Source: a virus. From it: a stretch of DNA of 20,434 bases. The position numbers and the translations under genes are program-made. The stretch spans positions 1 to 20,434 of the IMG/VR virus record IMGVR_UViG_3300040808_003240. One strand, written 5' to 3'. A model generated the notes under the pieces. That model searched no databases. It saw only the letters and a list, made by a program, of their open reading frames with translations, and was not told the origin of the DNA. Positions 2,918-20,434 of the stretch are shown piece after piece (the first letter of the stretch is position 1; each line of letters begins with the position of its first letter).

Positions 2918-4524
2918 TGGCCGAAGTGAGAAGAGGTGGAGGTGCACCAGGTGACCAAAGCTTTGAGCAAAGAATAAAACAGTTTCCCGGACCATACATA
3001 GCATACATAAAAAATTCAGCCGACGTGCTTAGGATGGGCAGATTGGATGTATGGATTCCTGAACTGCATGGACCATTTGACGAGTCTGCTCTGTCTCCAT
3101 TGGCACAGACAGTGACCGTGAGATACTGTTCGCCATTCGCTGGCCAGACTCCGCTGTCAGACACCAACAAAAAAGTTGGATATGCAAACACACAAAAATC
3201 ATACGGTTTTTGGATGGTACCACCGGACATTGACACAGCCGTTTTAGTGATATTTGCTAATGGTGATAGGAATAATGGATTTTGGATAGGATGTGTTCCT
3301 GAACCATATATGAACCATATGACTCCGGGCAAAGCTGTTAATCCCATTGATGAAAGATATGTAGGTGACAACGATCATAATGCCAAATACAAGAATGAAT
3401 TAAATCTCAAAAGAGTTCCGGTTGCTGAAGGCAATAGAAAGGCATTGGCAGACAATGACAGACCGGTGCAACAAAACACCAACTATGACGATGACATAGC
3501 CATATTCACAAGACCGGTAAATCCATATGACGCAGATTCATTGATTGCCCAAGGATTGGAATCTGATGACATCAGAGGATTAACATCAGCATCCGCAAGG
3601 AGAGAAACACCGTCACAGGTGTTTGGTATATCAACACCAGGACCGATAGACTTTGAAGGGCAACAGACATCTGCCAGAGAATCCATCAATAGACACGGAA
3701 GAATCATTAGCGGCGGCGGACCAGCGCCGGGTAATACAATAGCTAAAGTGGCCCATTCTCGATTGGGAGGACACACATTTGTGATGGATGACGGAACGCC
3801 GGCCAAAAAAGTAAACAACACCATAACGGAAGCCATTAAAGATGAACTCATAAGATTGAGAACTAGGAGTGGTGCACAACTGCTGTTGCACAACACAGAA
3901 GGATTAGTGTACATCACAAACACAGATGGAACTTCATGGATAGAATTTTCAAAAGACGGCAAGATTGATATCTATGCCAAAGACAGTGTGTCTGTGAGAA
4001 CAGAAGCAGATTTTAATTTTGTAGCAGACAGAGATGTCAACATCGAAGCAGGAAGAAACATCAATTTGACTGCACTCGGAACCAACAACGACGAAGCAGG
4101 GTTAGTAAACAGTTTTCCAAACGCCGACACAGGTAGGGTATCTGTGCAGGGTAAAAACATTGATATTTTTGCTTTAGTGAATCTTGATCAAAAAGCAAAT
4201 AGTGATTTTAGATTGTACGCAAACAACGGATTGATCGAAGTAAACACTGATGTGAAAACTTATGCCGGCAACGACTTTCTGGTAAACACAGGCAACGAAA
4301 TACATATGAACACTTCAGGAAAAGTTGCATCAGGTGTGGTCGGTTCAGACGTAATTACGGAAAAAACTTATTTCACAAACAAAGGTGCACACAGGAATTT
4401 ATCAACAACCAAAAGGGTGCCTACTGCCGAACCTTATGCAGAACACGAAAACAAAAGACGTGATAGGACCACAGCACAAAAAACTGATGTTGAGACCTAT
4501 CTGGATGAAAGAGAGATCACTTAA
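2917..4524 (+). CDS. 5: gp5-like baseplate central spike protein, without lysozyme domain
   Basis: This 535-aa protein has the plan of the gp5/VgrG-type spike. Residues about 20-135 form an OB-fold-type segment (PGPYIAYIKNSADVLRMGRL, then later FWMVPPDIDTAVLVIF and GFWIGCVPEPY). A polar linker covers about 140-270. From about residue 281 (SRLGGHTFVMDDG) there is the usual entry to a triple-stranded beta-helix, followed by short alternating strands such as GKIDIYAKDSVSVRTEAD and DVNIEAGRNINLTA. Near residue 501 there is RVPTAEPYAEHEN, a Pro-rich box I recall from T4-like spikes, then a charged tail. T4 gp5 (575 aa) carries a lysozyme domain between OB-fold and helix; here the linker is too short and shows no such domain. 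The protein should trimerise as the membrane-piercing spike below the tail tube and carry the PAAR protein on its tip. It overlaps both neighbours by one base. Confidence 0.86.
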   Translation: MAEVRRGGGAPGDQSFEQRIKQFPGPYIAYIKNSADVLRMGRLDVWIPELHGPFDESALSPLAQTVTVRYCSPFAGQTPLSDTNKKVGYANTQKSYGFWMVPPDIDTAVLVIFANGDRNNGFWIGCVPEPYMNHMTPGKAVNPIDERYVGDNDHNAKYKNELNLKRVPVAEGNRKALADNDRPVQQNTNYDDDIAIFTRPVNPYDADSLIAQGLESDDIRGLTSASARRETPSQVFGISTPGPIDFEGQQTSARESINRHGRIISGGGPAPGNTIAKVAHSRLGGHTFVMDDGTPAKKVNNTITEAIKDELIRLRTRSGAQLLLHNTEGLVYITNTDGTSWIEFSKDGKIDIYAKDSVSVRTEADFNFVADRDVNIEAGRNINLTALGTNNDEAGLVNSFPNADTGRVSVQGKNIDIFALVNLDQKANSDFRLYANNGLIEVNTDVKTYAGNDFLVNTGNEIHMNTSGKVASGVVGSDVITEKTYFTNKGAHRNLSTTKRVPTAEPYAEHENKRRDRTTAQKTDVETYLDEREIT

Positions 4525-8300: not shown

Positions 8301-8792
8301 CTGCTGTTTGGTCCTGGCGCAGAAGCAAATCTACAGGCCACATTCAAAGTAGTCAAAAATCCAAACACTAATGCTAGTGATAATCAATTGAAATCCAACC
8401 TAATTCAGGCAATTAACAATTATTTTTCATTAGGACTTTGGGATTTTGGCGACACTTTTTATTTTACAGAACTAGCGGCATACTTACACAACCAACTTGC
8501 TCCTGATGTATTGAGCGTGGTAATTGTTCCTGCGGAATCTTCAAGCGGATTTGGATCATTGTTCCAAGTTAGATCTGAAGACAACGAAATATTAATTTCT
8601 TCTGCAACTGTTGATAATGTTGAAGTAATAACATCGATCACAGCAGAAAAACTTAAAGCCACAGGTAATGTTGTATCATCTACAGATACAGTTGATATAA
8701 CAACTACTTCAAACAGCACTGTTTCTTCTACTAATACAAGTGGATTAACATCGTCTGGAACATCCAGTGGCAATGTTGGGGGTTACTATTAA
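5304..8792 (+). CDS. 6: Baseplate wedge protein gp6, enlarged (1162 aa)
   Basis: The N-terminal part has the gp6/baseplate-J pattern: SSEFVALIDLIAYVGQSISY, then ENFIDLAERKESVLRLARL and FQPKRNIPASGYLKI (about residues 55-120). IKTLAPQSYYTNNR then ITAEDYQ at about 417-436 is the typical core 'AP..Y...R.I...DY' box. The C-terminal part, about 940-1090, contains DIYVMTKSYDNELRNWL and GLWDFGDTFYFTELAAYL followed by PDVLSVVIVP, as expected for the gp6 C-terminal region. In T4, gp6 dimers link the wedges into a continuous ring around the hub. T4 gp6 has about 660 residues; here about 450-500 extra residues lie between the core box and the C-terminal part, including an EF-hand-like loop at 814-825. 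Residues about 1125-1162 are a Ser/Thr-rich tail. The start has no clear ribosome binding site but is the first ATG after the late promoter. Its stop overlaps the start of the giant gene. Confidence 0.9.
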   Translation: MAVDNRQNTLLATTVWQKLYRTFSQTNFKAYDFDTIRRTLIDYLQVNYAESFNDFIDSSEFVALIDLIAYVGQSISYRVDLNARENFIDLAERKESVLRLARLISFQPKRNIPASGYLKINSISTTETVFDANGQNLANTPILWNDLTNDNWQEQFTAVLNASLPKEQFIGKPQAKDTIGGTPTELYRFNSTNLDTPIYQFTRNINGVNMPFEIAPVSFLNEKFLYEEAPVPGNALSFIYKNDSQGFGSRNTGYFLKFVQGAISQQNFTVTQPAPNTKVTITSNNINNNDVWLFKLDSSGVITERWTKVPAITGNNVIYNSLANNVNNQFSVVTKTNDQIDLVFSDGVYGTLPKGTFQCVFRKSNGLTYQIQPSDLTNVSIEVEYLGRSGQVNTLTLNASLQNTVTNAQASQSLNQIKTLAPQSYYTNNRMITAEDYQITPLIENPSIAKAKSQLRISSGISRFLDIVDPTGVYSQTDIFADDGILYRDEKDQTFDFQFTTRDDVQQVINTTLSNVFVNDDFRQFYYRKFPRQSGGTDRTWNQSTQATNNCTGYFKDTDPLSVGTQTTSNLRYITKDSLVKFTAPSGYHFMDNGTLMAGAAGHPGSKDSIWCKVVSIEGDGSNGGQGNLGDGTGPVVLNDLVPSTAILSEIIPEFVDSISTTLATTIIDNVVAYKNFGLTYDPAERTWSVIAEDNLSSGDFSLENQGDTSNSQLDASWLVKFSTNGVSYTVTYRSTKYIFHSYNRNKFYFDESVKIFDPETGKTIKDKIRILKTNTGPDLSAILNYNYDWQIYKNVPGEDGYNDTRKVQVGFFDSDDDGVVDNPDLFELVVDPLQQVGYKYVFFKDVTRNGITDKDPVLNSEFVVTDLESSISDYTIYSDSQKFYFYSTNTFKQYSTTTGVLTTVTGYSAYRGRDNLLYQYKHGAPRTRRIDPAVSNIVDIYVMTKSYDNELRNWLRKNQSGTKPSAPTINDLNNQYGISLDNVKSISDQVIFNPGQYKLLFGPGAEANLQATFKVVKNPNTNASDNQLKSNLIQAINNYFSLGLWDFGDTFYFTELAAYLHNQLAPDVLSVVIVPAESSSGFGSLFQVRSEDNEILISSATVDNVEVITSITAEKLKATGNVVSSTDTVDITTTSNSTVSSTNTSGLTSSGTSSGNVGGYY
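7743..7778 (+). other. EF-hand/dockerin-type calcium loop in the gp6 insert
   Basis: Residues 814-825 read D-S-D-D-D-G-V-V-D-N-P-D. This is a full match to the twelve-residue EF-hand-type loop, with acidic residues at positions 1, 3, 5, 9 and 12 and Gly at 6. A weaker loop-like stretch, DVTRNGITDKDP, follows about 32 residues later and could be its partner. Calcium binding is inferred from the pattern only. Confidence 0.55.
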
Positions 8793-11700
8793 TGTCATCT
8801 TCAACAAGGTCTACAAGTAAATTATTACCGCAAATATTTCAAACAGACACAAACAAAAAGTTCCTATCAGCAACACTAGATCAATTAGTAGAACCTTCTG
8901 CTTTGGTAAAACTTTCTTCCTTTATAGGAAAGAGACATAAACCAACATACAGATCTAAAGACAACTATGTTGCTGAACTTACAGCAGAGAGGCAAAACTA
9001 TCAATTAGAACCTGCTGTATCCTATGCATCGGATGGAGGGAACACAGATTTCATTGCACCTTACATTGATGTAGTCAATGAGATTGATGCTCAGGGCGGG
9101 CAAAAGAAAAATCACGAGAAGTTGTGGAATGAAGATTTTTATTCATACGCACCCCCCATTGATGCAGATAAGTTTGTAAACTATCGACAATACTATTGGT
9201 TAAAAGACGGTCCATCGTCTGTCACAACATTGCCTGGTAGTCCCGGTTGTGAAATAACAATCAATGTAACCAACAATAAATTATCTGCCTGGAAGTTCAA
9301 TAACAAAACAACCGACAATCCAGACATTGTTGTCTACAAAGGCAACACCTACAACTTTGTCATAGATTCTCCAGGTTTCAATTTTTATATCAAAACACAA
9401 TATGGTACAGGTACTGGTGACCAGTTCGATGACTCATATGTTACAAATAATGGCACTGACAAAGGAACCGTAACGCTCAAAGTTCCTGCATCTGATTCTT
9501 CCACAACAAATGAAACAGTGATTTTTTATCAGTGTGAACATCACCAGGATATGCAGGGAAGATTAATTGTAAAAGATCTCAATATAGAAAAGTTTGATCC
9601 AGCAGAGAATATTGTGGGAGTAAACAAATTTGTTGACAGCACTGGATTAGAATACACCACTGGTATGAAATTAAGGTTTACTAATGATGTCACTGCAACT
9701 TACAGTTCTAAAAAAATGTACTGTGAGATGGTGGGCACTGGCATTAGGTTGGTGGATATCAATGACTTGAATGTTTTTGAATCCTATGGTGTTGACACAG
9801 GAGAAGTTTTTGACGAAAAGGGCATTGTGGGATTTGACACAGTGGGATTTGATAATTCTGAAGGTGTGTCAGTCAACAAGGATTATTGGACCATAGGCAA
9901 ATCGGCCATTAATAAAAATGCTTGGTCTAGAGCAAATAGATGGTTTCACATAGATGTTATCAACAAGAGCAACGAAAAGAATCCTTTATCACCAACACAA
10001 ACAACGGAAGCTCTAAGAGCCAAACGTCCGATTATAGAATTCGATCCAGACTTGCAGTTGTTCAATCACGGCACCAAGTTCAAAAAGGTCACGTACATTG
10101 ATACCTTGGTCACTGATGCGTTGTCAAAAGTGCAAGGCACAACAGGTTTTAGGGTAGATCAGACAAGTTTGAAAGCCAATGATACAGTTGTGTTTATCAA
10201 CGACCCTGAACAGAGAAATAAAATTTTTACAGTGCATTTCGATGCACTACCTAATGGAACTCAAGTAATTCACTTAGATGATGATTCAACGACAGTGGAA
10301 GAAAATACAAGCATCGTAGCTACAGATGGTGAATCATTCAAAGGAAAAACTTATCATTACACCAATGGCACCTGGAAATTATCACAGGCAAAAACTGGAG
10401 TACAACAGAAACCATTATTTGATATTGTAAATGGAAATGGTGTTTCTCTCAGTGATTCCACGGTGTTCAACAGCACAAATTTTACTGGTTCGACATTGTT
10501 TGAAATTGCAACATCAACCCAAGGCACTCCGGACACAGAGTACGGCACAAATGTAATCTATAAAAGATTTGGATTGTTGACGGACTTACAAGTAAATGAG
10601 AAATTTAACAGTGAAGTTTTCAATTACATTAATTCTTTAGGCAATCTTGTTAAAGACCCTGTGAGAAAATATTTTTTGAAAGTGAATTCTGACAGTTCAT
10701 ATGTATTGAAAAACAATTTTGCTAAGACAAAAATAAGCAATCAACAATACAAGATTGAGAATTATGAATCAACTGATCAACAAACAAAATTTGAAATCAG
10801 ATCTTGGAATGATGTGACTGCGTTGACAGACCTTGATGTCAAAGTAAGTGTCAATGGGGTTAAGACAACAAAATATACATTGCAAAATCAAAATCAATCC
10901 CGGTTTGTGGTATTCACTGACAAGCAAACCGAAGGCAGTTTGATTAGCATAAAAACCTTCAGTCCAACAGCAACTTCGAGCAATTTTGGATTCTGGGACG
11001 TGCCTATTTCTACAACTAGCAATCCTTATAATAAAAATTTTACTAATTTTACCTTTGGTGACATAATACAACACTATGTGACAGGTATTGAAAACCATCC
11101 AGACGCAGTTGGATCGAGTCAGGGCGAAAATAATTCGAGAAACATCGACAACACATTCTACTACGGTACGCAGATAGTACAGCACAGTGGATCTTTGCCT
11201 CTATCTTCTGTTATTATCAGAGATGATGTGATTAACATCACAAAATCCCTACGTTTTGCTTCCAAGGAGTATGAAAAATTTAAGAACAGCATTGTAACAG
11301 TGGCAAACAGGATTGCACTCAACGGCACAGTCGCCCAACAACTTGATGACATCATCAACGAGATCAACAAAAACAAGAACAGCACATTTGCTTTTGCAAA
11401 AACAGATATGCTTGGGTATGGCAGTGACAAAAAAGTTTTGTCTTACACAGTCAATGATGTCAACATAACAAATTATCCTATCACCAGTGAGTTCGGGTTG
11501 GATAGTCTATCTCAAAAGAGTGTGTATGTCTATAAAAACGATGTACAATTGGTGCACGGCCTAGATTATGAATTTACCAACTTGGAAGACTCTTCCAACA
11601 TAATTGGTGTAGTAATCAAATCATCTCTGGCAGTTAATGACGTGTTAGAGATTCACGAATACGCATCCACCAATAACAACTTTGTTCCTTCTACTCCGGC

Positions 11701-14700
11701 CAAACTAGGATTGGCACCTTGTTATAGACCAAGAATATTTGAGGATGACACATATCAAACAGCAATTGATGTAATAGAAGGCCACGATGGTTCGATCACA
11801 GTTGCGTATGGTGATTTCAGAGACAATATTTTACTTGAGTTTGAAAAAAGAATATTCAACAACATCAAAACTAAACACAGTGCAGATGTATTCGATTTGA
11901 AACAATCTTACAACACACAGGAAATTGAAAATCTATTTGCAAGAGATTTTTACACCTGGACAGGAAGCAATGGAATAGATTACGCAACAAATAGTTCGTA
12001 TGATTCCGCAAATGAGTTCACATACAATTACTCCGGAGACGTTGATACTATCGATGGTAGTGCTCTGAAAGGTTTTTGGAGAGGAATTTACAAACAATTG
12101 TTTGGCACAGATAGGCCACACACTGCACCATGGGAAATGTTTGGCTTCAGCATCAAGCCAAGTTGGTGGGACAGCAGGTACGGTCCAGCTCCTTACACCA
12201 AAGGCAACACAATTTTATGGAATGATGTCAAAGAAGGATTCATTGCAGAAGGTGACAGGAAAGGTTATCATAAAAAGTACGAAAGAAATTATATAACATC
12301 TGTGATTCCTGTCACAGAAAACGGCAAACTCAATTCACCTATCAACAGCGGTATCACAACAGGCACAGCAAGTAATTCCTCATACCAATCTAAATGGGAA
12401 TACGGCGATGTTGCTCCGGCAGAAGCGGCTTGGTACAAAAGTTCATCTTACAGATTTGCAGAACAAATAGCATTATTCCTTGCATTTCCTAACAAATATA
12501 GTGGTATAATGTTTGACACTTCGAGGATCGCCAAGTCGACCATCGGCCAATACATTTACGACAATGACTATAGAAAAATTATAAGTGATTATGTTGTGCC
12601 AAACTCAACTTCGCTGACAGCTGGATATATCAACTACATTGTTGACTATGTGATGCACCTAGGATATGACATTTCTTATGTATCAAATAGATTAGCAAAT
12701 CTCGAATCCAAGTTGATATACAAATTGGGTGGCTTCAGCAACAAAAATAATATGAGGGCAGTGATCAGTTCTTACAATCCTGAGTCGACAAATAGAAGTG
12801 TCTACCTCCCCAATGAAAATTTGAACTTCTTACTGTTCAAGAGTGCCCCCACAGATTACGTCAATTATTCAGGAGTCATTGTTGAAAAGGATTCGGGTGG
12901 TTACAAAGTTAGTGGATACAATAATTTTGACAGATCATTCAAATATTATCAGCCAAGAAAAAATAATGATTTTGTCACCATAATAGTTGGAGGCACAACA
13001 CCTGCATACTATGACTGGAAACCAGGAGGCTTTTACAATTCTGGATCTATTGTAAAATACGAGTCGAGTTTTTACAGAGCATCAAAGAACATACAGTCGG
13101 GAGAAACTTTCGACGAAACCAACTACACAGTAATTGGCAGGGTGCTTCCTTTACAAGGTGATACAAGAGTAAAAAAATACAACAAACATTTACAGAATGT
13201 TTCCACACTGCCATACGGCACAGTGTTAGCAAATATACAGGAAGTGGCAGATTTCTTGTATGGTTATTCTCAATATCTAGAATCCAAAGGTTTTGTGTTT
13301 GATGATTTTTCGGAAGAACTTCAAGTACCAGTAGATTGGGATCTATCAGTAAAAGAATTTTTGTTCTGGACCACGCAGGGATGGCAAGACCAAGCGGTGA
13401 TAACACTATCTCCGGCTAGTGCAAAAATAAAATACATCAAGGATTTTGCAACAGGCGACGATCTGGTGACAGGATCTCAATATTATACTGTGTTACAACA
13501 GGATGGATTTCCAATTGATAAATCTAATTTGCAAACATCTCGAATTGACGGTGAATTTGTTATTTCAACTAATCCCAACGAAGATGGAATCTACAATGTT
13601 GATATAAGAGCAATCCAGAAAGAACACGTTGTTATTTTTGATAACATTACTTCTTTCAAAGACGTTATATTCGATGACACACTGGGAGTTAGACAGGATA
13701 GAATAAAACTTGTAGGGTGGAAAACAGATCTATGGAACGGCGACATATTTGCACCTGGTTATATTGTTGATCAGGCCAAGGTATCTGAATGGCAAACCAA
13801 CAATGATTACAAAAAAGGCGATGTGGTACAACACCAAAATTTAACGTATGTCAGTCTAACTACTCACAATTCCGGAGAAGAATTTGATCCTCAAAAATAC
13901 AGTTTAAAATTTTCTACTCCAGAAAGAGATTTACTGCCAAACTTTGATTCGAAAGCAGAAAGTTTTAGAGACTTTTACTCACTGGATACTGACAACTTTG
14001 ACAGTGAACAACAAAAGTATGCACAACACTTAATTGGTTTTGAAACAAGAAATTATTTTGAAAATCTTGGCCTAGATGAATTAACACAATATAAATTTTA
14101 CCAAGGAATGTTGCGTGACAAAGGAACGAAGAAACCTGTAGAAAAATTTAAGAGTCCTACACAAACACAGACATCGGTTAATTATTCTTTCTTTGAAGAA
14201 CAAGCATTTAGAGTAGGTGAATATGGCGGACATAGAACTCTTGATGAGTTTGAATGGCAGTTGAGTGATAAGAGTCACAGGCAACAGAGACAAATTTACA
14301 ATTTCACTCAAGCGTCACAAGACGACACGCAAAATATCATTAATGTAGGCTACAATGATTTTACTAAGAGACCAATGGAGACAAGTTATCCTATATTTTC
14401 TAATTATGAATACAGCACAAGATATACTCCTGAATTTATTTTCCAATATCCACAGGCGGGATATGTACAACCAAGACACGTCACAGCAAGTGTATGGGAC
14501 GAAAATGAATTATTAAATCTAAATTCAAGCAACTTGATTGAAGGAAATACCATATGGATGGCAAACACATCTAATGGTGATTGGAACATCTACAGAGTAT
14601 CTTCTATCAATAATAACATTCAATACTATGATGCCCACGACGGAATAATGCAGTTCACAACAGAAACTCCGCACGGTTTAGAATCTAACGATTATGTTGT

Positions 14701-17700
14701 TGTTAAAGGTTATGAAAATGCAATCGACGGAATTTATAAGGTTACAGAATCACCTGATAGCACTGACAATCTTTATACATTTAGTGTCGCCTTTGATCAG
14801 ACGTTTGATAGCACTAATCAAAATGCAACAATATTTAAATTACAAAGTATCAGGATCAATGACATAGACGATTTAGATACTATAAGACCTGCAGGAGATT
14901 TCATCAATGGTGACAAAGTGTATGTTGACAACAATTATTGGAGATCGAACGGTAGATGGAACATATATGCGTTAGATGATGCCTCATATTTTTCTGTACA
15001 CAAAAATTTTTACAATGCGACCAACAATGTAGACAACACAGAGTTTGCATCTAGCATTGATATAGCAGACCAAGATGGTAAAACAATGGTGGTTGGATCA
15101 CCTGGTGATAATGTAATCAACATCTATATTAGAAATACATCAAATGGCATATTTGCACTTACTAGAGATTTATCACAGGATTACAAGAACAGTGATTCCA
15201 CAGATAGATTTGGACACAGCGTTGCAGTCAGCGGAGATGGCAGTAAGATATTTGTTGGGTCACCTTATTCTAACAATATTATAAAGTTGACATTAAGTTC
15301 AACTGATTTATCCTACAATAGAGGCAAATTAATTACAGGATCAGTTTCTGGGGCAACAGGTAGGGTATTGTTCAATGATGCTGTAAATGATGTTATGTGG
15401 GTCAAAGTGGTGAGTGGAACATTTACTACTGAACCTTTGGATATTGGTGATTCGTCATCTGTCGTAACAATAACAAGTGTTGGAGGAACCGATCTAGAAA
15501 ACCAAGGTGCTGTGCATTATATTGGTAAAGATAGCAATGGTGCATATCTGATCGACCACACTCAGGCTTCGCCTAATGTAGAAAATAATGAATATTTTGG
15601 ATGGAGTATCGATACAACAAAGACTGGAGATTTTTTAATAGTTGGTGCGCCTGGCAAGACACAGGTCAACTCAGATTCAACTTCTAATTTAGGTAGGGTG
15701 TACATTTACAAGTTGAATGCAAATGGCAGTTATGTTCATAACCAAACTCTTACTGGATCAGACAGTCAAGAAGGAGATAGTTTTGGATTTAGTGTATCTA
15801 TTTCAGAAAACGGTGACACTCTGGTAGTAGGAGCACCGACTTATGGAAGAACCGACACTAATGATTCATCTACAGAACTGTCTGGCAGAGCATATGTGTA
15901 TAGGAAAAGTGAAAATGGAACTTTTACAGCCAATGAAATTTTAGAACACGGAATAGATGAGTACAATTCACAGTTTGGATATAAAATTCAAGTATCAAAT
16001 GACGGCAATGATTTATTGATTGGCAGTCCTAATGAAACAAATGTACTAACAAATCAAGGATTAATTTATTACTATAAACTATCAACTCAAACTTATGCTG
16101 GAGATGGTTCAACAACTTCATTCACTAGCAATTTTGATATAGATACCAGCCACACAATCGGAGTCACTCAGAACGGCAATGTTACAACAAGTTGGTCAAA
16201 TGTGGGCAATGTAATAACATTGGCAGTGGCGCCTTCCGATGGCGATGTAATCACAGTGAATCAATACCAGCAATCTCAAACCATATCACAGTTTGTGCCT
16301 GTGATCAACAGTGGCTTTGGATCTAATTTTAAATTGAGAGGTAATCGATTAGTTGTGTATGCACCAAATGATAATACAGATCTACAAACTACTTTCGATA
16401 AACTTAGTGAAGATGGTAGCACAAAAATAACAGCAGTTACATCATTTGATGGTGGCAATACAAATTTTTATGACAGAGTATCAGGCACAGGATCAGTTTA
16501 CAATTACAATAAAATTAATACAAAATTTATATACGAAAATAAAATCACATCAAATGATGTAGGCGCCAATGATAAATTTGGTTATGCAATAGATTCGCAT
16601 AACAGTCAATTGTTTATTGGATCACCATACAAAGAAGTTTTTAGTACAGTCACAGACACCACATTAAACAATGCAGGAACCCTATTTAATTTTAAAAAAA
16701 CATCCACGGAATCGGCTAGTTGGCAAGTTTTAAGTTCACAACCTGTTTTGACAGATCCAAGCAGAATCACAAAATCTTTCATATATGATAACAAAACAGA
16801 CACGTTAGTTAACCGTTTACCTGTACTTGACACAGCAAAAGGTAAACTTTTTGGACCTGTTGAACAAAATATTTCATACAAAACATTTTACGATCCAGCA
16901 GATTATGATTCCTGGGGTGCCGAACACATTGGCGAAGTTTGGTTTGATCTAAATAAATTTAAGACAGTCTGGTACGAGCAAGGTGATTTAAATTATAGAC
17001 TTTTGAATTGGAACACAATACATCCGAGTGCAACAGTGGAGTTTAAAGAATGGGTAGAAAGTGAATATACGCCAACAGACTATAATGCACTAGCAGACAC
17101 TAATGAGGGTGTTGCACAGAATATTACTGGTACAGCAGAAACTGTGTCATTTGTGACCAAGCAGATATTTGATGACAACAAGCAACAATTTGTGAATAGA
17201 TATTTTTATTGGGTTACAAATCCAACGGTGTTACCTAGCAGTACGTATAGAACAGTCACCTGTTTACAGATGGCAAATTCTGTAAAGAATCCAAGGAGTT
17301 TTGATGAAAAATTTGCAGGATTAGTGAGAGAAGATGCATTGCTTATATCATTGAATTCGGATGAGATTGGGTCATCAACTTCATACAAGATAGAACAAAC
17401 AGTTGAAAATGCGGTGCAACAACACTCAGAGTATGCATTGATACCAAAAGGTGATCGAGATGCAGAAATTCCATCTCAAATACTTGGTAAAATGATGGAT
17501 TCTTTGATTGGTACCGATGCATTGGGCAGATCTGTACCTGATCTTGATGTTCCATATGCAATGAGATATGGCATTGGCAACAGACCAAGGCAAACTGTGT
17601 ACAAGGATAGAATACAGGCACTAAAAACGGTGATACAATCCATCAACGAATTTTTAGAAACTAAGCCATTTGCAAGTTTGAAAAATCTGCAATATTGGAA

Positions 17701-20434
17701 TTTGGTAGATGAAGAACCTAAGCAGGAAGTCGAAGGATGGACATTAAGTGTTGATACTGACACTGACTTACGTTATATAAACACGGAAACATATTTAACA
17801 GGCGACAAAGTTCTAGTCAAAAATGATGCAAGAGCAGAAAATAGATGGACAATCAATACATTCAATAGTAATAGAGAGTTTGATCTAACAAAAGTCCAAT
17901 CATACAATACTAAAAACTATTGGACCTACAAAAATTATTATGCTCCTGGATATGACGAAAATATAGTTACAAATTACACAGTAGAAAACGAAGCGTCTAT
18001 GAGATCAACATCTTATGTAATAGGAGATGTGATTAAAGTTAAATCGAGTTATGATGGAAAGTTTAGAATTTACTTAAAGACGTATAATGATTTCCAGTCA
18101 ATTGCAATCGAACAAGGTACATTTGAATTAAGTTCTGCGATATACGATTTTGAAAACAATGCAATAGGATACGGTGGTGATGCTTATGCGTTTAATGTTT
18201 TTGACAAAGAAGCAACTACTGAACTTAGGAACATATTTTTAGGCTTACAAAAAGATATTTTCATTGATGATGACAGACTGCTGTTTGTTGACTTATTTTT
18301 CCTAATGGTTGAAATAGCTAATCAACAAATTAAGTCAAATGATTGGACGTTTAAATCCTCGTTTATCAAATTGATTGCAACACATTCACAATTCGACCAA
18401 CCGCCAGAATTCAAATTCAACACAACTGATTCTGTAGAAGATTTTTTGAATGAAGTCTTACCTTTCAAAACAAAGATCAGAGAAAATGTTGCAAAATATA
18501 ACAATCTAATCACATTCGAAGGTGATGTCACTGATTTTGACAATCCTACATATTATGACAAGGATCAAAAACAGTATGTAAATCCTCAAATGTTCAATGA
18601 TGACAGTTCTTATTTTAACGTCTATAACAAATATCCTCACAAATTTTACAGTGAAAATTACAAATTTTATGTAGAATCTATAGACATAGGAACACCTGGA
18701 TCAGGATACACTGTGGCACCAGAAGTGTTAATTACTGGAGGAGGTGGATCTGGAGCCAAAGCAACAGCATTTATTTCCAATGGATCTATATCTAAAATCA
18801 CAATGACAGCATCAGGCAGTGGATACATCACAACACCTACAGTGACAATTAACGGCGGCGGAGGTACTGTAACACAGACAGCAGTGTGTTCTGCTAGATT
18901 AAACAATGATAAAGTCAGAACATTTGACAACATAGTTAAATTTGATCGGGTCAATTCTAACAAACAAATTACAAACGCCACAATAGTTGAATGGGAACCT
19001 TTCACCAAATACACAGTTGGCAAAAATATTAGATATGTGAACAAAATTTATAGGGTGATAGAAGAATTCACATCTGGAAGAACATTCGAAGACTATATTA
19101 GACTGGCAGACTCGTCTTCAGTGCTTCCATCTGCCAACGATGTCATAACAGAATGGACTGCCACAGATAGAATTCACGCTTATTATCAACCAACAACCGG
19201 AATGCCTGGACTGTTAGGTGATGGATCCACGGCTGTTAATGTATATTCTCAGTTAATGACAGGATTGGAATATGCTGGAACACGATTACAATCACTCAAA
19301 TTTGAGGAAGGTGATGGTTATGATGTGGACAGTTATGATATGACCAACTACGATTCGCAGGAAAGCCAGATAGTTGATCCTGAGCAACTGCTAAATCTTG
19401 ATCAAATAGTAGATTCCAAAACATTTACCACCACACTGGGCACAAAAGCGGAAGACATCAACATAGTAGGTGACGCATTTTTGTCAGAATATTCTGCACA
19501 GGCTCCTGAAGAAGTGCTTCCAGGCGGTGTCTACGACACAATGGATATGAAAATTTACACACAGCCTTCAAATGGTAGTGGAATAATCAATACAACCAAA
19601 TATCAAGGTGACGGTTCTACCACAACATTTGCTGTACAAGGGCAGGTTATCAATAATAGTTCGATCAGAGTGTTTAAAAATAATCAATATCAAAGCAGTG
19701 GTGGCACACATTACAGTTTTGACCACACAGCAAAAACAATTACTTTTAATACAGCACCACAAAGCGGCGACATAATTGTCATACAGGCTTTTGACTTTGG
19801 AGTTGACTCGTTGATTTCGGAATATGAGTTTGATGGTGATGGATCAACAACATCTTTCACAGTGCCGTTGAGCAGAGATTTGGTCAAACAAACCTACGTG
19901 AGTGTTGATGGAATAAAAACTTCGATAACTGTGACGTCTGTGGGAGATTCGGCTTCGACGAGATTTACATTTTCTTCTGCGCCAGCCGACAACAGCAAAA
20001 TATTTGTGTATGTATTCAACAAAGACACTTCTACAAAAGCATATGCCGAAATGACAACAACAGAATACACAGTTTCGACAACTAATCCAATTGTTGCGTT
20101 GACATCTGTGCCTGGAGTGCTTGGACCACATCATCACAAAGTTTTGGTTGAAGGTACAAGCGGAACTGATTCGACAAATAGATATAAATTGTCACCACCA
20201 CAGATAGCATATTACACGGGTGACGGAACATCAGTGGATTTTGCTATTCCTAATTCTCCGGAAAGCAGATATCTTGCAAGTAATTCGAATGTTGAAGTGT
20301 GGAAAAACGGAATAGTACAAACGGTTGCTACACACTACACAGTGATCAATGATTCAAGTTCGGTTGCATCTGTGAGATTTGGAACAACACCAGCAGAAGG
20401 TGACACCATTGCAGTCATACTCAAAGAAGGACAC
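8792..20434 (+). CDS. Giant modular baseplate/tail structural protein (at least 3881 aa, partial)
   Basis: The ATG at 8792 lies inside the gp6 stop (TAATG). I read its frame to base 20434 without finding a stop, giving 3881 codons and a protein that continues past the window. No signal peptide or membrane segment is visible. The N-terminus (MSSSTRSTSKLLPQIFQTDT) leads to NHEKLWNEDFYSYAPPIDAD and then to a chain of beta-rich modules, each listed separately: a cupredoxin-like segment, CBM5/12-like modules, an FG-GAP propeller, a Gly-rich tandem repeat and GDGST modules. Between them are stretches I recall from very large proteins found after gp6 in marine T4-like phages, such as RPHTAPWEMFGFSIKPSWW (about 1108-1126) and YGIGNRPRQTVYKDR (about 2926-2940). 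Position and coupling to gp6 match T4 gene 7 (gp7, 1032 aa), so a wedge role with added host-contact modules is plausible but unproven. A long fibre-type protein is the alternative. Confidence 0.85.
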   Translation, partial: MSSSTRSTSKLLPQIFQTDTNKKFLSATLDQLVEPSALVKLSSFIGKRHKPTYRSKDNYVAELTAERQNYQLEPAVSYASDGGNTDFIAPYIDVVNEIDAQGGQKKNHEKLWNEDFYSYAPPIDADKFVNYRQYYWLKDGPSSVTTLPGSPGCEITINVTNNKLSAWKFNNKTTDNPDIVVYKGNTYNFVIDSPGFNFYIKTQYGTGTGDQFDDSYVTNNGTDKGTVTLKVPASDSSTTNETVIFYQCEHHQDMQGRLIVKDLNIEKFDPAENIVGVNKFVDSTGLEYTTGMKLRFTNDVTATYSSKKMYCEMVGTGIRLVDINDLNVFESYGVDTGEVFDEKGIVGFDTVGFDNSEGVSVNKDYWTIGKSAINKNAWSRANRWFHIDVINKSNEKNPLSPTQTTEALRAKRPIIEFDPDLQLFNHGTKFKKVTYIDTLVTDALSKVQGTTGFRVDQTSLKANDTVVFINDPEQRNKIFTVHFDALPNGTQVIHLDDDSTTVEENTSIVATDGESFKGKTYHYTNGTWKLSQAKTGVQQKPLFDIVNGNGVSLSDSTVFNSTNFTGSTLFEIATSTQGTPDTEYGTNVIYKRFGLLTDLQVNEKFNSEVFNYINSLGNLVKDPVRKYFLKVNSDSSYVLKNNFAKTKISNQQYKIENYESTDQQTKFEIRSWNDVTALTDLDVKVSVNGVKTTKYTLQNQNQSRFVVFTDKQTEGSLISIKTFSPTATSSNFGFWDVPISTTSNPYNKNFTNFTFGDIIQHYVTGIENHPDAVGSSQGENNSRNIDNTFYYGTQIVQHSGSLPLSSVIIRDDVINITKSLRFASKEYEKFKNSIVTVANRIALNGTVAQQLDDIINEINKNKNSTFAFAKTDMLGYGSDKKVLSYTVNDVNITNYPITSEFGLDSLSQKSVYVYKNDVQLVHGLDYEFTNLEDSSNIIGVVIKSSLAVNDVLEIHEYASTNNNFVPSTPAKLGLAPCYRPRIFEDDTYQTAIDVIEGHDGSITVAYGDFRDNILLEFEKRIFNNIKTKHSADVFDLKQSYNTQEIENLFARDFYTWTGSNGIDYATNSSYDSANEFTYNYSGDVDTIDGSALKGFWRGIYKQLFGTDRPHTAPWEMFGFSIKPSWWDSRYGPAPYTKGNTILWNDVKEGFIAEGDRKGYHKKYERNYITSVIPVTENGKLNSPINSGITTGTASNSSYQSKWEYGDVAPAEAAWYKSSSYRFAEQIALFLAFPNKYSGIMFDTSRIAKSTIGQYIYDNDYRKIISDYVVPNSTSLTAGYINYIVDYVMHLGYDISYVSNRLANLESKLIYKLGGFSNKNNMRAVISSYNPESTNRSVYLPNENLNFLLFKSAPTDYVNYSGVIVEKDSGGYKVSGYNNFDRSFKYYQPRKNNDFVTIIVGGTTPAYYDWKPGGFYNSGSIVKYESSFYRASKNIQSGETFDETNYTVIGRVLPLQGDTRVKKYNKHLQNVSTLPYGTVLANIQEVADFLYGYSQYLESKGFVFDDFSEELQVPVDWDLSVKEFLFWTTQGWQDQAVITLSPASAKIKYIKDFATGDDLVTGSQYYTVLQQDGFPIDKSNLQTSRIDGEFVISTNPNEDGIYNVDIRAIQKEHVVIFDNITSFKDVIFDDTLGVRQDRIKLVGWKTDLWNGDIFAPGYIVDQAKVSEWQTNNDYKKGDVVQHQNLTYVSLTTHNSGEEFDPQKYSLKFSTPERDLLPNFDSKAESFRDFYSLDTDNFDSEQQKYAQHLIGFETRNYFENLGLDELTQYKFYQGMLRDKGTKKPVEKFKSPTQTQTSVNYSFFEEQAFRVGEYGGHRTLDEFEWQLSDKSHRQQRQIYNFTQASQDDTQNIINVGYNDFTKRPMETSYPIFSNYEYSTRYTPEFIFQYPQAGYVQPRHVTASVWDENELLNLNSSNLIEGNTIWMANTSNGDWNIYRVSSINNNIQYYDAHDGIMQFTTETPHGLESNDYVVVKGYENAIDGIYKVTESPDSTDNLYTFSVAFDQTFDSTNQNATIFKLQSIRINDIDDLDTIRPAGDFINGDKVYVDNNYWRSNGRWNIYALDDASYFSVHKNFYNATNNVDNTEFASSIDIADQDGKTMVVGSPGDNVINIYIRNTSNGIFALTRDLSQDYKNSDSTDRFGHSVAVSGDGSKIFVGSPYSNNIIKLTLSSTDLSYNRGKLITGSVSGATGRVLFNDAVNDVMWVKVVSGTFTTEPLDIGDSSSVVTITSVGGTDLENQGAVHYIGKDSNGAYLIDHTQASPNVENNEYFGWSIDTTKTGDFLIVGAPGKTQVNSDSTSNLGRVYIYKLNANGSYVHNQTLTGSDSQEGDSFGFSVSISENGDTLVVGAPTYGRTDTNDSSTELSGRAYVYRKSENGTFTANEILEHGIDEYNSQFGYKIQVSNDGNDLLIGSPNETNVLTNQGLIYYYKLSTQTYAGDGSTTSFTSNFDIDTSHTIGVTQNGNVTTSWSNVGNVITLAVAPSDGDVITVNQYQQSQTISQFVPVINSGFGSNFKLRGNRLVVYAPNDNTDLQTTFDKLSEDGSTKITAVTSFDGGNTNFYDRVSGTGSVYNYNKINTKFIYENKITSNDVGANDKFGYAIDSHNSQLFIGSPYKEVFSTVTDTTLNNAGTLFNFKKTSTESASWQVLSSQPVLTDPSRITKSFIYDNKTDTLVNRLPVLDTAKGKLFGPVEQNISYKTFYDPADYDSWGAEHIGEVWFDLNKFKTVWYEQGDLNYRLLNWNTIHPSATVEFKEWVESEYTPTDYNALADTNEGVAQNITGTAETVSFVTKQIFDDNKQQFVNRYFYWVTNPTVLPSSTYRTVTCLQMANSVKNPRSFDEKFAGLVREDALLISLNSDEIGSSTSYKIEQTVENAVQQHSEYALIPKGDRDAEIPSQILGKMMDSLIGTDALGRSVPDLDVPYAMRYGIGNRPRQTVYKDRIQALKTVIQSINEFLETKPFASLKNLQYWNLVDEEPKQEVEGWTLSVDTDTDLRYINTETYLTGDKVLVKNDARAENRWTINTFNSNREFDLTKVQSYNTKNYWTYKNYYAPGYDENIVTNYTVENEASMRSTSYVIGDVIKVKSSYDGKFRIYLKTYNDFQSIAIEQGTFELSSAIYDFENNAIGYGGDAYAFNVFDKEATTELRNIFLGLQKDIFIDDDRLLFVDLFFLMVEIANQQIKSNDWTFKSSFIKLIATHSQFDQPPEFKFNTTDSVEDFLNEVLPFKTKIRENVAKYNNLITFEGDVTDFDNPTYYDKDQKQYVNPQMFNDDSSYFNVYNKYPHKFYSENYKFYVESIDIGTPGSGYTVAPEVLITGGGGSGAKATAFISNGSISKITMTASGSGYITTPTVTINGGGGTVTQTAVCSARLNNDKVRTFDNIVKFDRVNSNKQITNATIVEWEPFTKYTVGKNIRYVNKIYRVIEEFTSGRTFEDYIRLADSSSVLPSANDVITEWTATDRIHAYYQPTTGMPGLLGDGSTAVNVYSQLMTGLEYAGTRLQSLKFEEGDGYDVDSYDMTNYDSQESQIVDPEQLLNLDQIVDSKTFTTTLGTKAEDINIVGDAFLSEYSAQAPEEVLPGGVYDTMDMKIYTQPSNGSGIINTTKYQGDGSTTTFAVQGQVINNSSIRVFKNNQYQSSGGTHYSFDHTAKTITFNTAPQSGDIIVIQAFDFGVDSLISEYEFDGDGSTTSFTVPLSRDLVKQTYVSVDGIKTSITVTSVGDSASTRFTFSSAPADNSKIFVYVFNKDTSTKAYAEMTTTEYTVSTTNPIVALTSVPGVLGPHHHKVLVEGTSGTDSTNRYKLSPPQIAYYTGDGTSVDFAIPNSPESRYLASNSNVEVWKNGIVQTVATHYTVINDSSSVASVRFGTTPAEGDTIAVILKEGH
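9284..9580 (+). other. Cupredoxin/plastocyanin-like module in the giant protein
   Basis: Residues about 165-263 read like a short cupredoxin-type beta sandwich: VVYKGNTYNFVIDSPGFNFY, then GTVTLKVP, then IFYQCEHHQDMQGRLIVKD. The last strand carries Cys248, His250/His251 and Met254, in the place of the C..H...M copper ligands of plastocyanin-type proteins. The first expected His, usually in the strand after DSPG, is not present, so a complete copper site is doubtful. Similar 'GHP..F ... YC..H.GM.G' segments occur, as I recall, in marine phage structural proteins. Confidence 0.55.
12113..12244 (+). other. Conserved Trp/Pro-rich box of the giant protein
   Basis: Residues about 1108-1151 contain RPHTAPWEMFGFSIKPSWW, then YGPAPYTKGNTILWNDVKEG. 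The dense Trp, Pro, Gly and Tyr content in an otherwise Asn/Ser/Thr-rich protein marks a conserved structural core. I recall very similar boxes in giant proteins of T4-like marine phages, which makes it a useful family marker. Its function is unknown. Confidence 0.5.
13016..13141 (+). other. CBM5/12-like module 1
   Basis: From Trp1409 the pattern is W-K-P-G-G-F-Y-N-S-G-S-I-V-K-Y, then SFYRAS and finally GETFDETNYTVIG. This fits the chitin-binding-type fold of CBM5/12 ('W....Y..G..V.y.g..Y.a......P......W'), although the last aromatic residue is Tyr. Binding of a sugar is inferred. Confidence 0.5.
13790..13900 (+). other. CBM5/12-like module 2
   Basis: Trp1667 begins W-Q-T-N-N-D-Y-K-K-G-D-V-V-Q-H, followed by LTYVSLTTHNSGEEFDPQKY. 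The Y-K-K-G-D-V-V core is the clearest CBM5/12-type match of the set, and the spacing equals that of module 1. Confidence 0.55.
14642..14800 (+). other. PHGL-type beta module
   Basis: Residues about 1951-2000 contain MQFTTETPHGLESNDYVVVK then DGIYKVTE. The 'T...PHGL..gD.V.V.g....dG.Y.Vt' pattern recurs, as I recall, in phage tail and virion proteins as a small beta domain. The role is unknown. Confidence 0.4.
15300..15480 (+). other. SGATG-type module inserted between propeller blades 2 and 3
   Basis: The stretch contains GKLITGSVSGATGRVLFND, then WVKVVSGTFTTEPLDIGDSS. This 'G.tSGAtG.V ... sGtF..ge.i' arrangement is a small beta module I recall from marine phage virion proteins. It accounts for much of the extra length between the second and third blades. 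Confidence 0.45.
16091..16266 (+). repeat. GDGST module A, inserted between propeller blades 5 and 6
   Basis: TYAGDGSTTSFTSNFDID, then GVTQNGNVTTSW and ITLAVAPSDGDVITVNQY. The frame 'GDGSTT.F ... V..nG ... i.....P..GD.I.V' is shared with modules B, C and D near the right end. This plan resembles small N-terminal beta domains of phage tail fibres such as T7 gp17. Confidence 0.7.
18002..18081 (+). other. Possible CBM5/12-like module 4 (degenerate)
   Basis: TSYVIGDVIKVKSSYDGKFRIYL has the Y..GD.I...S....G.fr.Y order of the other CBM5/12-like modules but lacks the leading Trp. The assignment is weak. Confidence 0.25.
18671..18901 (+). repeat. Tandem Gly-rich GSGY repeat (two units)
   Basis: Two adjacent units of about 37-39 residues share one plan: I.....GSGY...P.V.I.GGGG...... 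A. Unit 1 has IDIGTPGSGYTVAPEVLITG, then GGGSGAKATAFISNG; unit 2 has ITMTASGSGYITTPTVTING, then GGGTVTQTAVCSA. This repeat type is, as I recall, common in marine phage structural proteins and probably makes a regular beta structure. Confidence 0.75.
18992..19096 (+). other. CBM5/12-like module 3
   Basis: Trp3401 begins W-E-P-F-T-K-Y-T-V-G-K-N-I-R-Y, then KIYRVIEEFTSGRTFEDY. The W, Y, G and second Y positions match modules 1 and 2, and all three end with a 'SG..F....Y'-type segment. Confidence 0.5.
19598..19800 (+). repeat. GDGST module B
   Basis: TKYQGDGSTTTFAVQGQVIN, then IRVFKNNQYQ and ITFNTAPQSGDIIVIQAFDF. It follows the same frame as module A, with an added HYSF strand. It is the first of three modules set close together at the right end of the window. 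Confidence 0.75.
19820..20020 (+). repeat. GDGST module C
   Basis: EYEFDGDGSTTSFTVPLSRD, then YVSVDGIKTSITVTSVG and FTFSSAPADNSKIFVYVFNK. It is the copy most like module A in its opening motif (GDGSTTSFT) and follows module B almost directly, so a local duplication is likely. Confidence 0.75.
20201..20434 (+). repeat. GDGST module D (runs to the window edge)
   Basis: IAYYTGDGTSVDFAIPNSPE, then VEVWKNGIVQTVATHYTV and VRFGTTPAEGDTIAVILKEG. It has the same frame as modules A-C with a slightly changed opening (GDGTSVDF). The series may continue beyond the window. Confidence 0.7.

Follow-up and report, generated by a model that had tools for sequence, protein, structure and literature searches.

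We found that the giant virion protein encoded next to the baseplate wedge gene gp6 in an uncultured jumbo phage contains an FG-GAP_2 beta-propeller. Modelling gives strong grounds for predicting that residues 2085-2649 of this protein form a complete, seven-bladed propeller resembling the head of the integrin alpha chain. The propeller is fixed in one slot across a large branch of uncultured jumbo phages related to RaK2, and the length of one of its loops varies from none to about 950 aa. Its role is less certain, and we tentatively favour an adhesion platform on the baseplate.

A giant virion protein is encoded next to gp6

The window analysed here is a stretch of 20,434 nucleotides (IMG/VR record IMGVR_UViG_3300040808_003240, positions 1 to 20,434), and its genes and domains are given in Table 1. 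The gp6-like protein matched phrog_10646 (E 6.4e-298) and phrog_219 (E 1.8e-23), both of which are annotated 'baseplate wedge subunit'. The 3881-aa ORF that follows it matched phrog_10938 ('virion structural protein') with 1049.7 bits, in four stretches over conserved blocks; in a near relative (L093) the giant protein is complete, at 4261 aa. The stop codon of gp6 and the start codon of the giant ORF overlap (TAATG at 8790-8794). The overlap fits translational coupling of the two genes without demonstrating it, and the statement in the initial annotation that the protein is translated with gp6 can be taken that far.

The members of phrog_10938 include RaK2 ORF070w, PA5oct gp355, Atu_ph07 gp180 and Phosso 294, as well as proteins of PBECO4 and CBB. 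Nine relatives from cultured jumbo phages were 3326-4555 aa long, and a gp6-like protein was encoded directly upstream in eight of them (the exception was Salicola phage SCTP-2, where the gp6 match was located elsewhere). The PA5oct member is annotated 'ESI-MS/MS'. For phAPEC6, the accessible part of the report lists gp245 (382 kDa) after the wedge protein gp244, with 17 unique peptides (PMC7247149); by its size and gene order, gp245 would be a homologue of this family. As gp6 adjoins, the wedge is the simplest location, and from synteny and the proteomics of the family we consider it likely that the giant protein sits at the baseplate wedge.

As with T4 gp7, the giant ORF directly follows gp6. 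Homology to T4 gp7 was not detected, however: comparison of 40 family rows with six T4-like gp7 proteins using hhalign gave best E-values of 0.11 for the N part and 0.14 for the C part, where the reversed controls gave 0.58 and 0.054. No Gp7 Pfam domain was found in the ORF, and Gp7_helical was found in T4 alone among eight records that included that of the window. We also modelled residues 1470-2084 (pTM 0.42); T4 gp7 was absent among the matches listed, which excludes nothing. Since kinship with T4 gp7 was not detected by sequence, the best name for the giant protein would be gp6-adjacent rather than gp7. The earlier description of a baseplate-linked protein is thus supported by the synteny with gp6 and by the detection of family members in virions, but not by homology to gp7.

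Several further domains surround the propeller. Pfam placed three CBM_5_12 stretches in the ORF (37.4 bits over the whole ORF, cut-off 26.2). One of these, at residues 1409-1432, was weak (16.6 bits), and residues 1666-1696 alone scored 33.1 bits; a third site, sought at residues 3280-3360 taken alone, gave no match. A model of the CBM_5_12 module matched 8fqc_P1 from the Milano baseplate (Z 7.2, rmsd 1.3, 45 residues) and 3wx7_A (Z 7.1, rmsd 1.2, 45 residues). The small beta domain 5' of the propeller gave a middling match to 7pvn_A (Z 9.4, rmsd 2.1, 76 residues) and to 4hiz_B (Z 8.0), and so resembles an E1-enzyme domain (which we take to be FCCH) as well as beta domains found in endosialidases and tail proteins of phages. 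The block after the propeller is common to phages without a propeller, as seen by blastp to the nine cultured relatives. A genome scan for the host returned three matches (two titled MAG and one uncultured binned genome), and no host was inferred.

Table 1. Features of the window, with residues numbered in the giant ORF
Feature	Position	Strand	Basis
Virion structural protein	248-2917	+	
Hub-type protein	2917-4524	+	
PAAR-type protein, then gp25-like wedge protein	between the hub-type and gp6-like genes	+	
gp6-like baseplate wedge protein, 1162 aa	5304-8792	+	phrog_10646, phrog_219
Giant virion protein adjacent to gp6, 3881 aa, running past the 3' end of the window	8792-20434	+	phrog_10938
CBM_5_12 (chitin-binding type) module, residues 1666-1696	13787-13879	+	Pfam, model matches
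Small beta domain 5' of the propeller, residues 1931-2020	14582-14851	+	structural matches
N-terminal strand, candidate ring-closing strand, residues 2065-2075	14984-15016	+	DSSP strand 38-46 of the model
Propeller blade 1	15044-15175	+	repeats, AlphaFold2 model
Propeller blade 2, insert-bearing	15209-15565	+	repeats, AlphaFold2 model
Blade-2 B-C loop, 81 aa, small beta module, residues 2158-2238	15263-15505	+	
Propeller blade 3	15596-15751	+	repeats, AlphaFold2 model
Propeller blade 4	15782-15946	+	repeats, AlphaFold2 model
Propeller blade 5, insert-bearing	15974-16285	+	repeats, AlphaFold2 model
Blade-5 C-D insert, 49 aa, tail-fibre-type beta module, residues 2437-2485	16100-16246	+	
Propeller blade 6, degenerate motif, 43-aa B-C loop	16316-16546	+	
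Propeller blade 7	16577-16738	+	repeats, AlphaFold2 model
Conserved block 3' of the propeller, residues about 2650-3250	16739-18541	+	blastp to nine cultured relatives
Second module of the blade-5 insert type, residues 3600-3668	19589-19795	+	Phage_T7_tail E 0.00074, under cut-off

Seven FG-GAP repeats occur in order

The initial annotation had placed seven FG-GAP repeats in order at 15044-16740, and both the repeats and the coordinates were borne out (the final strand of blade 7 ends near 16738). The repeats, of the form FG..(G/S/Y)xP, start at residues 2085, 2140, 2269, 2331, 2395, 2509 and 2596 of the ORF at 8792-20434. The pattern matched seven times in the 3881-aa ORF, always within 15044-16740 and nowhere else, and when residues 2085-2649 were shuffled 2000 times, 1992 shuffles had no match and eight had one. 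As this pattern was composed by eye after the repeats were already known, we place the weight on Pfam FG-GAP_2 and on an iterated repeat profile. FG-GAP_2 (PF14312) matched the segment 15044-16740 with an E-value of 5.7e-30 (103.7 bits, cut-off 23), and four of the seven repeat stretches passed individually. It was also found, at E 0.01 or better, in 56 of 59 slot segments. The profile iterated on the repeats of Sinorhizobium phage Phosso, which is not wholly independent since its first round was seeded with the repeats of the window, recovered each of the seven, with scores between 2.6 bits (blade 1) and 23.7 bits; elsewhere it gave just two matches, below 0 bits. The motif of blade 6 is degenerate (VVYAP).

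We also evaluated the integrin-type class, Pfam FG-GAP (PF01839). It reached 14.2 bits, under the cut-off of 22.1, and a record-wide search was also negative. Of the two profiles that the initial annotation had named, it was therefore FG-GAP_2 that matched and not FG-GAP. A pattern search of residues 2030-2690 for a DxDxDG-type calcium motif found none, and no integrin leg domains followed the propeller in the Pfam scan of the ORF, where the next block is conserved phage sequence. Sequence searches of solved structures returned three antibody chains and one DNA-binding protein with the propeller (best E 0.013), a chitin deacetylase (E 0.027) and an antibody with the whole protein, and two chitinases with the core alignment (best E 0.08).

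The repeats are predicted to fold into a seven-bladed propeller

Residues 2030-2690 were modelled with AlphaFold2 using 58 relatives (a 90% filter on 71 with a slot of 550-960 aa). The model had a mean pLDDT of 88.0 and a pTM of 0.88, and its strand list (DSSP) gave seven blades of four strands each. In a Foldseek search of the PDB, integrin alpha chains made up 50 of the 50 matches listed; the best TM-scores were 0.45 by query length and 0.64 by target length, with an rmsd of about 7 or more, and these low scores are due to the inserts. With VIA-align, the best integrin alpha head aligned over 356 residues (Z 38.3, rmsd 3.0, model residues 36-616, from integrin residue 1 onwards). Nearly all the VIA alignments among the matches listed began at model residue 36, and the N-terminal strand at residues 2065-2075 was aligned to the first residues of the integrin alpha chains. 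Because the integrin match spans the whole ring, the model would be of a closed ring.

The complete seven-blade propeller proposed in the initial annotation is therefore backed by the model, with integrin alpha heads as the closest solved fold over the whole ring. Fewer blades or an open array, the outcomes named there as speaking against it, did not occur. The term 'integrin-type' holds for the predicted fold, whereas neither the Pfam class nor the calcium motif bears it out.

The model goes beyond the initial annotation in that extra beta modules lie inside two blades, in the B-C loop of blade 2 and between strands C and D of blade 5. The blade-5 insert matched Phage_T7_tail with an E-value of 0.002, under the cut-off, and the slot profile matched residues 2431-2493 again near the C-terminus, at 3600-3668 (19.8 bits). 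The B-C loops of blades 1-7 are 4, 81, 14, 16, 11, 43 and 18 aa long, and the A-B loops 6, 5, 5, 5, 5, 2 and 2 aa. In integrins, the ligand face is the face carrying the B-C loops.

The propeller is fixed in one slot across a large branch

In pairwise comparisons, conserved blocks flank the slot, extending up to about residue 1934 at most and resuming from about 2640. The gap between the aligned blocks was roughly 100 to 1530 aa in the nine cultured relatives (about 120 aa in RaK2, 340 in PA5oct and about 1500 in Phosso and Atu_ph07). A profile search found no propeller in the slot of any of these nine, and the slots of Phosso, Atu_ph07, SCTP-2, PA5oct, RaK2 and Vibrio 2.275.O had no Pfam family over the cut-off, this being true also of the whole ~1500-aa filling in Phosso and Atu_ph07 (L003, L004). 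In the whole records of the nine, FG-GAP_2 occurred solely in Phosso and Atu_ph07, in other frames.

Uncultured relatives were collected in three IMG/VR scans (the best 80 of 543, the best 80 of 435 and the best 80 of 543 relatives). The ranking followed similarity to the window in the first and second scans and similarity to RaK2 in the third. Searching with a back-translated pattern of the propeller by itself gave no relatives, and these were found through the core. RaK2 and Atu_ph07 as queries alone returned one 100% identical record each, and PA5oct alone returned none. The window-ranked scans yielded 121 loci with both blocks, the window included, and all 121 had the propeller. Since these lists are biased by likeness, the RaK2-ranked loci were added. 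In the resulting 198 loci with both blocks (from the best-80 lists, the cultured phages and the window, a few contigs being counted twice), the propeller was present in 157 and absent in 41. Presence meant 352 or more profile positions and absence 17 or fewer, and there were no intermediates.

We built an unrooted FastTree tree from the core and the C-flank only, with 145 rows thinned at 80%. Presence (109 rows) and absence (36 rows) of the propeller were separated by a single change with support 100 (shuffled mean 32.4), and there was no later loss in the 109 propeller rows. On an unrooted tree, this change is either one gain or one loss. Fourteen rows, several of them without the propeller, were flagged for odd letter make-up, and some grouping of the propeller-less rows could be an artefact of this.

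Rapid divergence of the slot and size changes of the blade-2 loop

Divergence was compared in 6555 pairs from 115 of the 121 loci, and in 6496 of the 6520 pairs with core identity below 0.97, conservation was lower in the slot than in the C-flank. The blade-2 B-C loop could be measured in 148 of the 157 propeller loci (it was missing in 9) and fell into three size classes: 0-38 aa in 27 loci, 71-91 in 63 and 153-952 in 58. These lengths are interpolated and rough, and two came out negative. On the tree (102 of the 109 thinned propeller rows), the size class changed 18 times, with a shuffled mean of 44. Taken one against the rest, the big class changed 9 times, the mid class 12 times and the small class 14 times, and well-supported branches forced 7, 9 and 11 of these changes, respectively. 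The small class was near chance scatter (16.9 changes on average after shuffling, with 12 of 500 shuffles giving a count as low), and with the rough lengths this means that noise may account for some of the 18 changes.

Where alignable, the loop residues were not less conserved than the strands, and the variation is in length. Mean pair identity among the nine nearest was 0.42 for B-C loops and 0.34-0.44 for other loops, and 0.29, 0.48, 0.45 and 0.37 for strands A, B, C and D.

Large inserts were excised from 42 of the 49 loci with a slot above 1000 aa. These 42 form a single linked family with lengths of about 465-925 aa, which points to change by descent rather than free swapping. The first member of this family matched no Pfam family and no PHROG, and over 29 members there were weak matches in single members. 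A subset (A4) holds 29 of the 42 inserts (e.g. L114:13631-15058). Further insertion points in relatives were found in blade 3 (C-D) and blade 4 (B-C). In L066, L222 and other loci the slot reached about 1700-2100 aa, and additional blades also contained stretches that did not align. CBM_5_12 modules occurred in 17 of the 59 slot segments.

The role of the propeller

The reading that we prefer, though with less than even confidence, is that the inserted propeller is a fixed adhesion platform on the baseplate, with loops that contact the host or hold a fibre. If the giant protein is part of the baseplate wedge, copies of the propeller would ring the baseplate, each being a rigid platform with its B-C-loop face outward. 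The loops and inserted beta modules would touch the host surface, or hold a receptor-binding fibre, during attachment; the target would probably be glycans, given the nearby carbohydrate-binding modules. Evolution would have kept the platform and changed the cargo of the blade-2 loop. The faster divergence of the slot relative to its flank and the frequent change in blade-2 loop size favour such an exposed platform, and the long loops, most of which would lie on one side of the ring, agree with it. Against it, the loops are no less conserved than the strands, the large blade-2 inserts belong to a single family in which Pfam revealed no binding domain, and the nine cultured relatives manage without a propeller. 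Host binding by the propeller is putative, and for the receptor-binding or partner-docking surface suggested in the initial annotation the indirect evidence is divided.

A structural role is nearly as likely. Inside an enlarged wedge, the propeller might act as a spacer or as a ring for docking, making no direct contact with the host, and its partners might be adjacent wedges, gp10-like pins or the base of the tail fibres. The single change on the tree and the absence of later loss fit either an adhesion or a structural role. The fixed slot and the conservation of the aligned loops agree with a structural part, as does the second gene downstream in a relative (L100), which weakly matches families of the baseplate wedge and of fibre connectors (phrog_18186, E 2.4e-6; phrog_677, E 0.0027) and whose top matches are to an unspecific virion protein. 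However, 36 of the 145 thinned rows, RaK2-like phages included, build the protein without a propeller; divergence is faster in the slot than in its flank; and a tight interface on that face would not usually accommodate a loop ranging from none to about 950 aa.

The adhesion platform could be taken further, to an integrin-like adhesion head that was acquired once and kept, with the blade-2 loop as an I-domain-like socket for modules that set the target of adhesion; we regard this fuller version as doubtful. Cleavage of a host surface polymer is a very unlikely function. Phage endosialidases have propellers, as stated in the accessible part of PMC4901313, and the giant protein also contains a carbohydrate-binding module, but family scans of the window's propeller gave no enzyme family over cut-off and the solved matches listed were integrin heads, not sialidases. 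It is more improbable still that the propeller is repeat-rich filler of no specific function, carried in an over-long protein. Other repeated beta modules in the protein and the low identity between slots would agree with filler, but at least 352 profile positions are covered in all 157 propeller loci and the tree shows no loss.

If the propeller is indeed an adhesion platform, the attachment machinery of this branch would differ from that of its cultured cousins in a single well-defined part that has a visible site of variation. How these uncultured jumbo phages recognise their hosts could then be tested on a single domain and a single loop, and the phage baseplate would be a further setting in which the integrin-head fold perhaps provides a platform for adhesion.

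Comparison with known systems

FG-GAP proteins are found in other viruses: Phosso XYS97267.1, the Atu_ph07 'hemagglutinin' A0A2L0UZX4, S-TIM5 H6WG31, A0A6J5S3H5 of an uncultured phage and giant-virus proteins. The partial text of PMC11953307, on haptophyte viruses, places one FG-GAP protein among those for virus entry. The FG-GAP proteins of Phosso and of the uncultured phage LR797314.1 are separate genes, outside the gp6-adjacent protein. No phage record met in the search had such a propeller inside its gp6-adjacent protein. XYS97267.1 (L001:11740-22818) has 3692 aa and about 40 FG-GAP-like repeats (25 Pfam stretches, E 1.7e-172), and its C-terminus carries a laminin-G-type domain; in Phosso FG-GAP_2 also occurs in the giant ORF adjoining it and in two ORFs of about 400 aa. 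In Atu_ph07, a 409-aa frame (NC_042013.1 243045-243311; L161, L163) has two FG-GAP_2 matches and is perhaps the 'hemagglutinin'.

Propellers of the baseplate are already on record. According to the available portion of PMC4901313, gp131C of PhiKZ (4GBF) is a seven-bladed propeller at the periphery of a jumbo-phage baseplate, for which a receptor-binding or cell-degrading role was speculated, and Gp45 of Staphylococcus phage phi11 is a baseplate beta-propeller thought to hold the receptor site. The PhiKZ propeller is a C-terminal domain, whereas the one described here is an insert in a gp6-adjacent giant protein. Gp45 has five blades and is a separate trimeric protein, in contrast to seven blades inside a giant protein. 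Beta-propeller lectins also occur in the fibres of extracellular contractile injection systems, as the accessible text of PMC12923769 states. The portion of the RaK2 adsorption paper at hand (PMC10253068) contains neither 'propeller' nor 'wedge', and in the titles and abstract openings returned by searches of an open-access library we found no description of FG-GAP propellers in phage tails, nor of an integrin-head-like one inside a gp6-adjacent protein. The cultured phrog_10938 proteins share the family and the adjacency to gp6 (eight of nine) and differ by their propeller-less slot.

The integrin alpha propeller (7usm_A, 5e6s_C, 1jv2_A) has the same seven-bladed FG-GAP fold as predicted here, with Z about 36-38 and rmsd about 3 among the matches listed. 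The phage propeller is unlike it in being FG-GAP_2 rather than FG-GAP, in having no DxDxDG-type motif, in its identity of 15-20% and in being embedded in a phage protein. In I-domain integrins, the I domain lies between blades 2 and 3; the phage propeller has its added module after strand B of blade 2, a placement comparable to that of the I domain.
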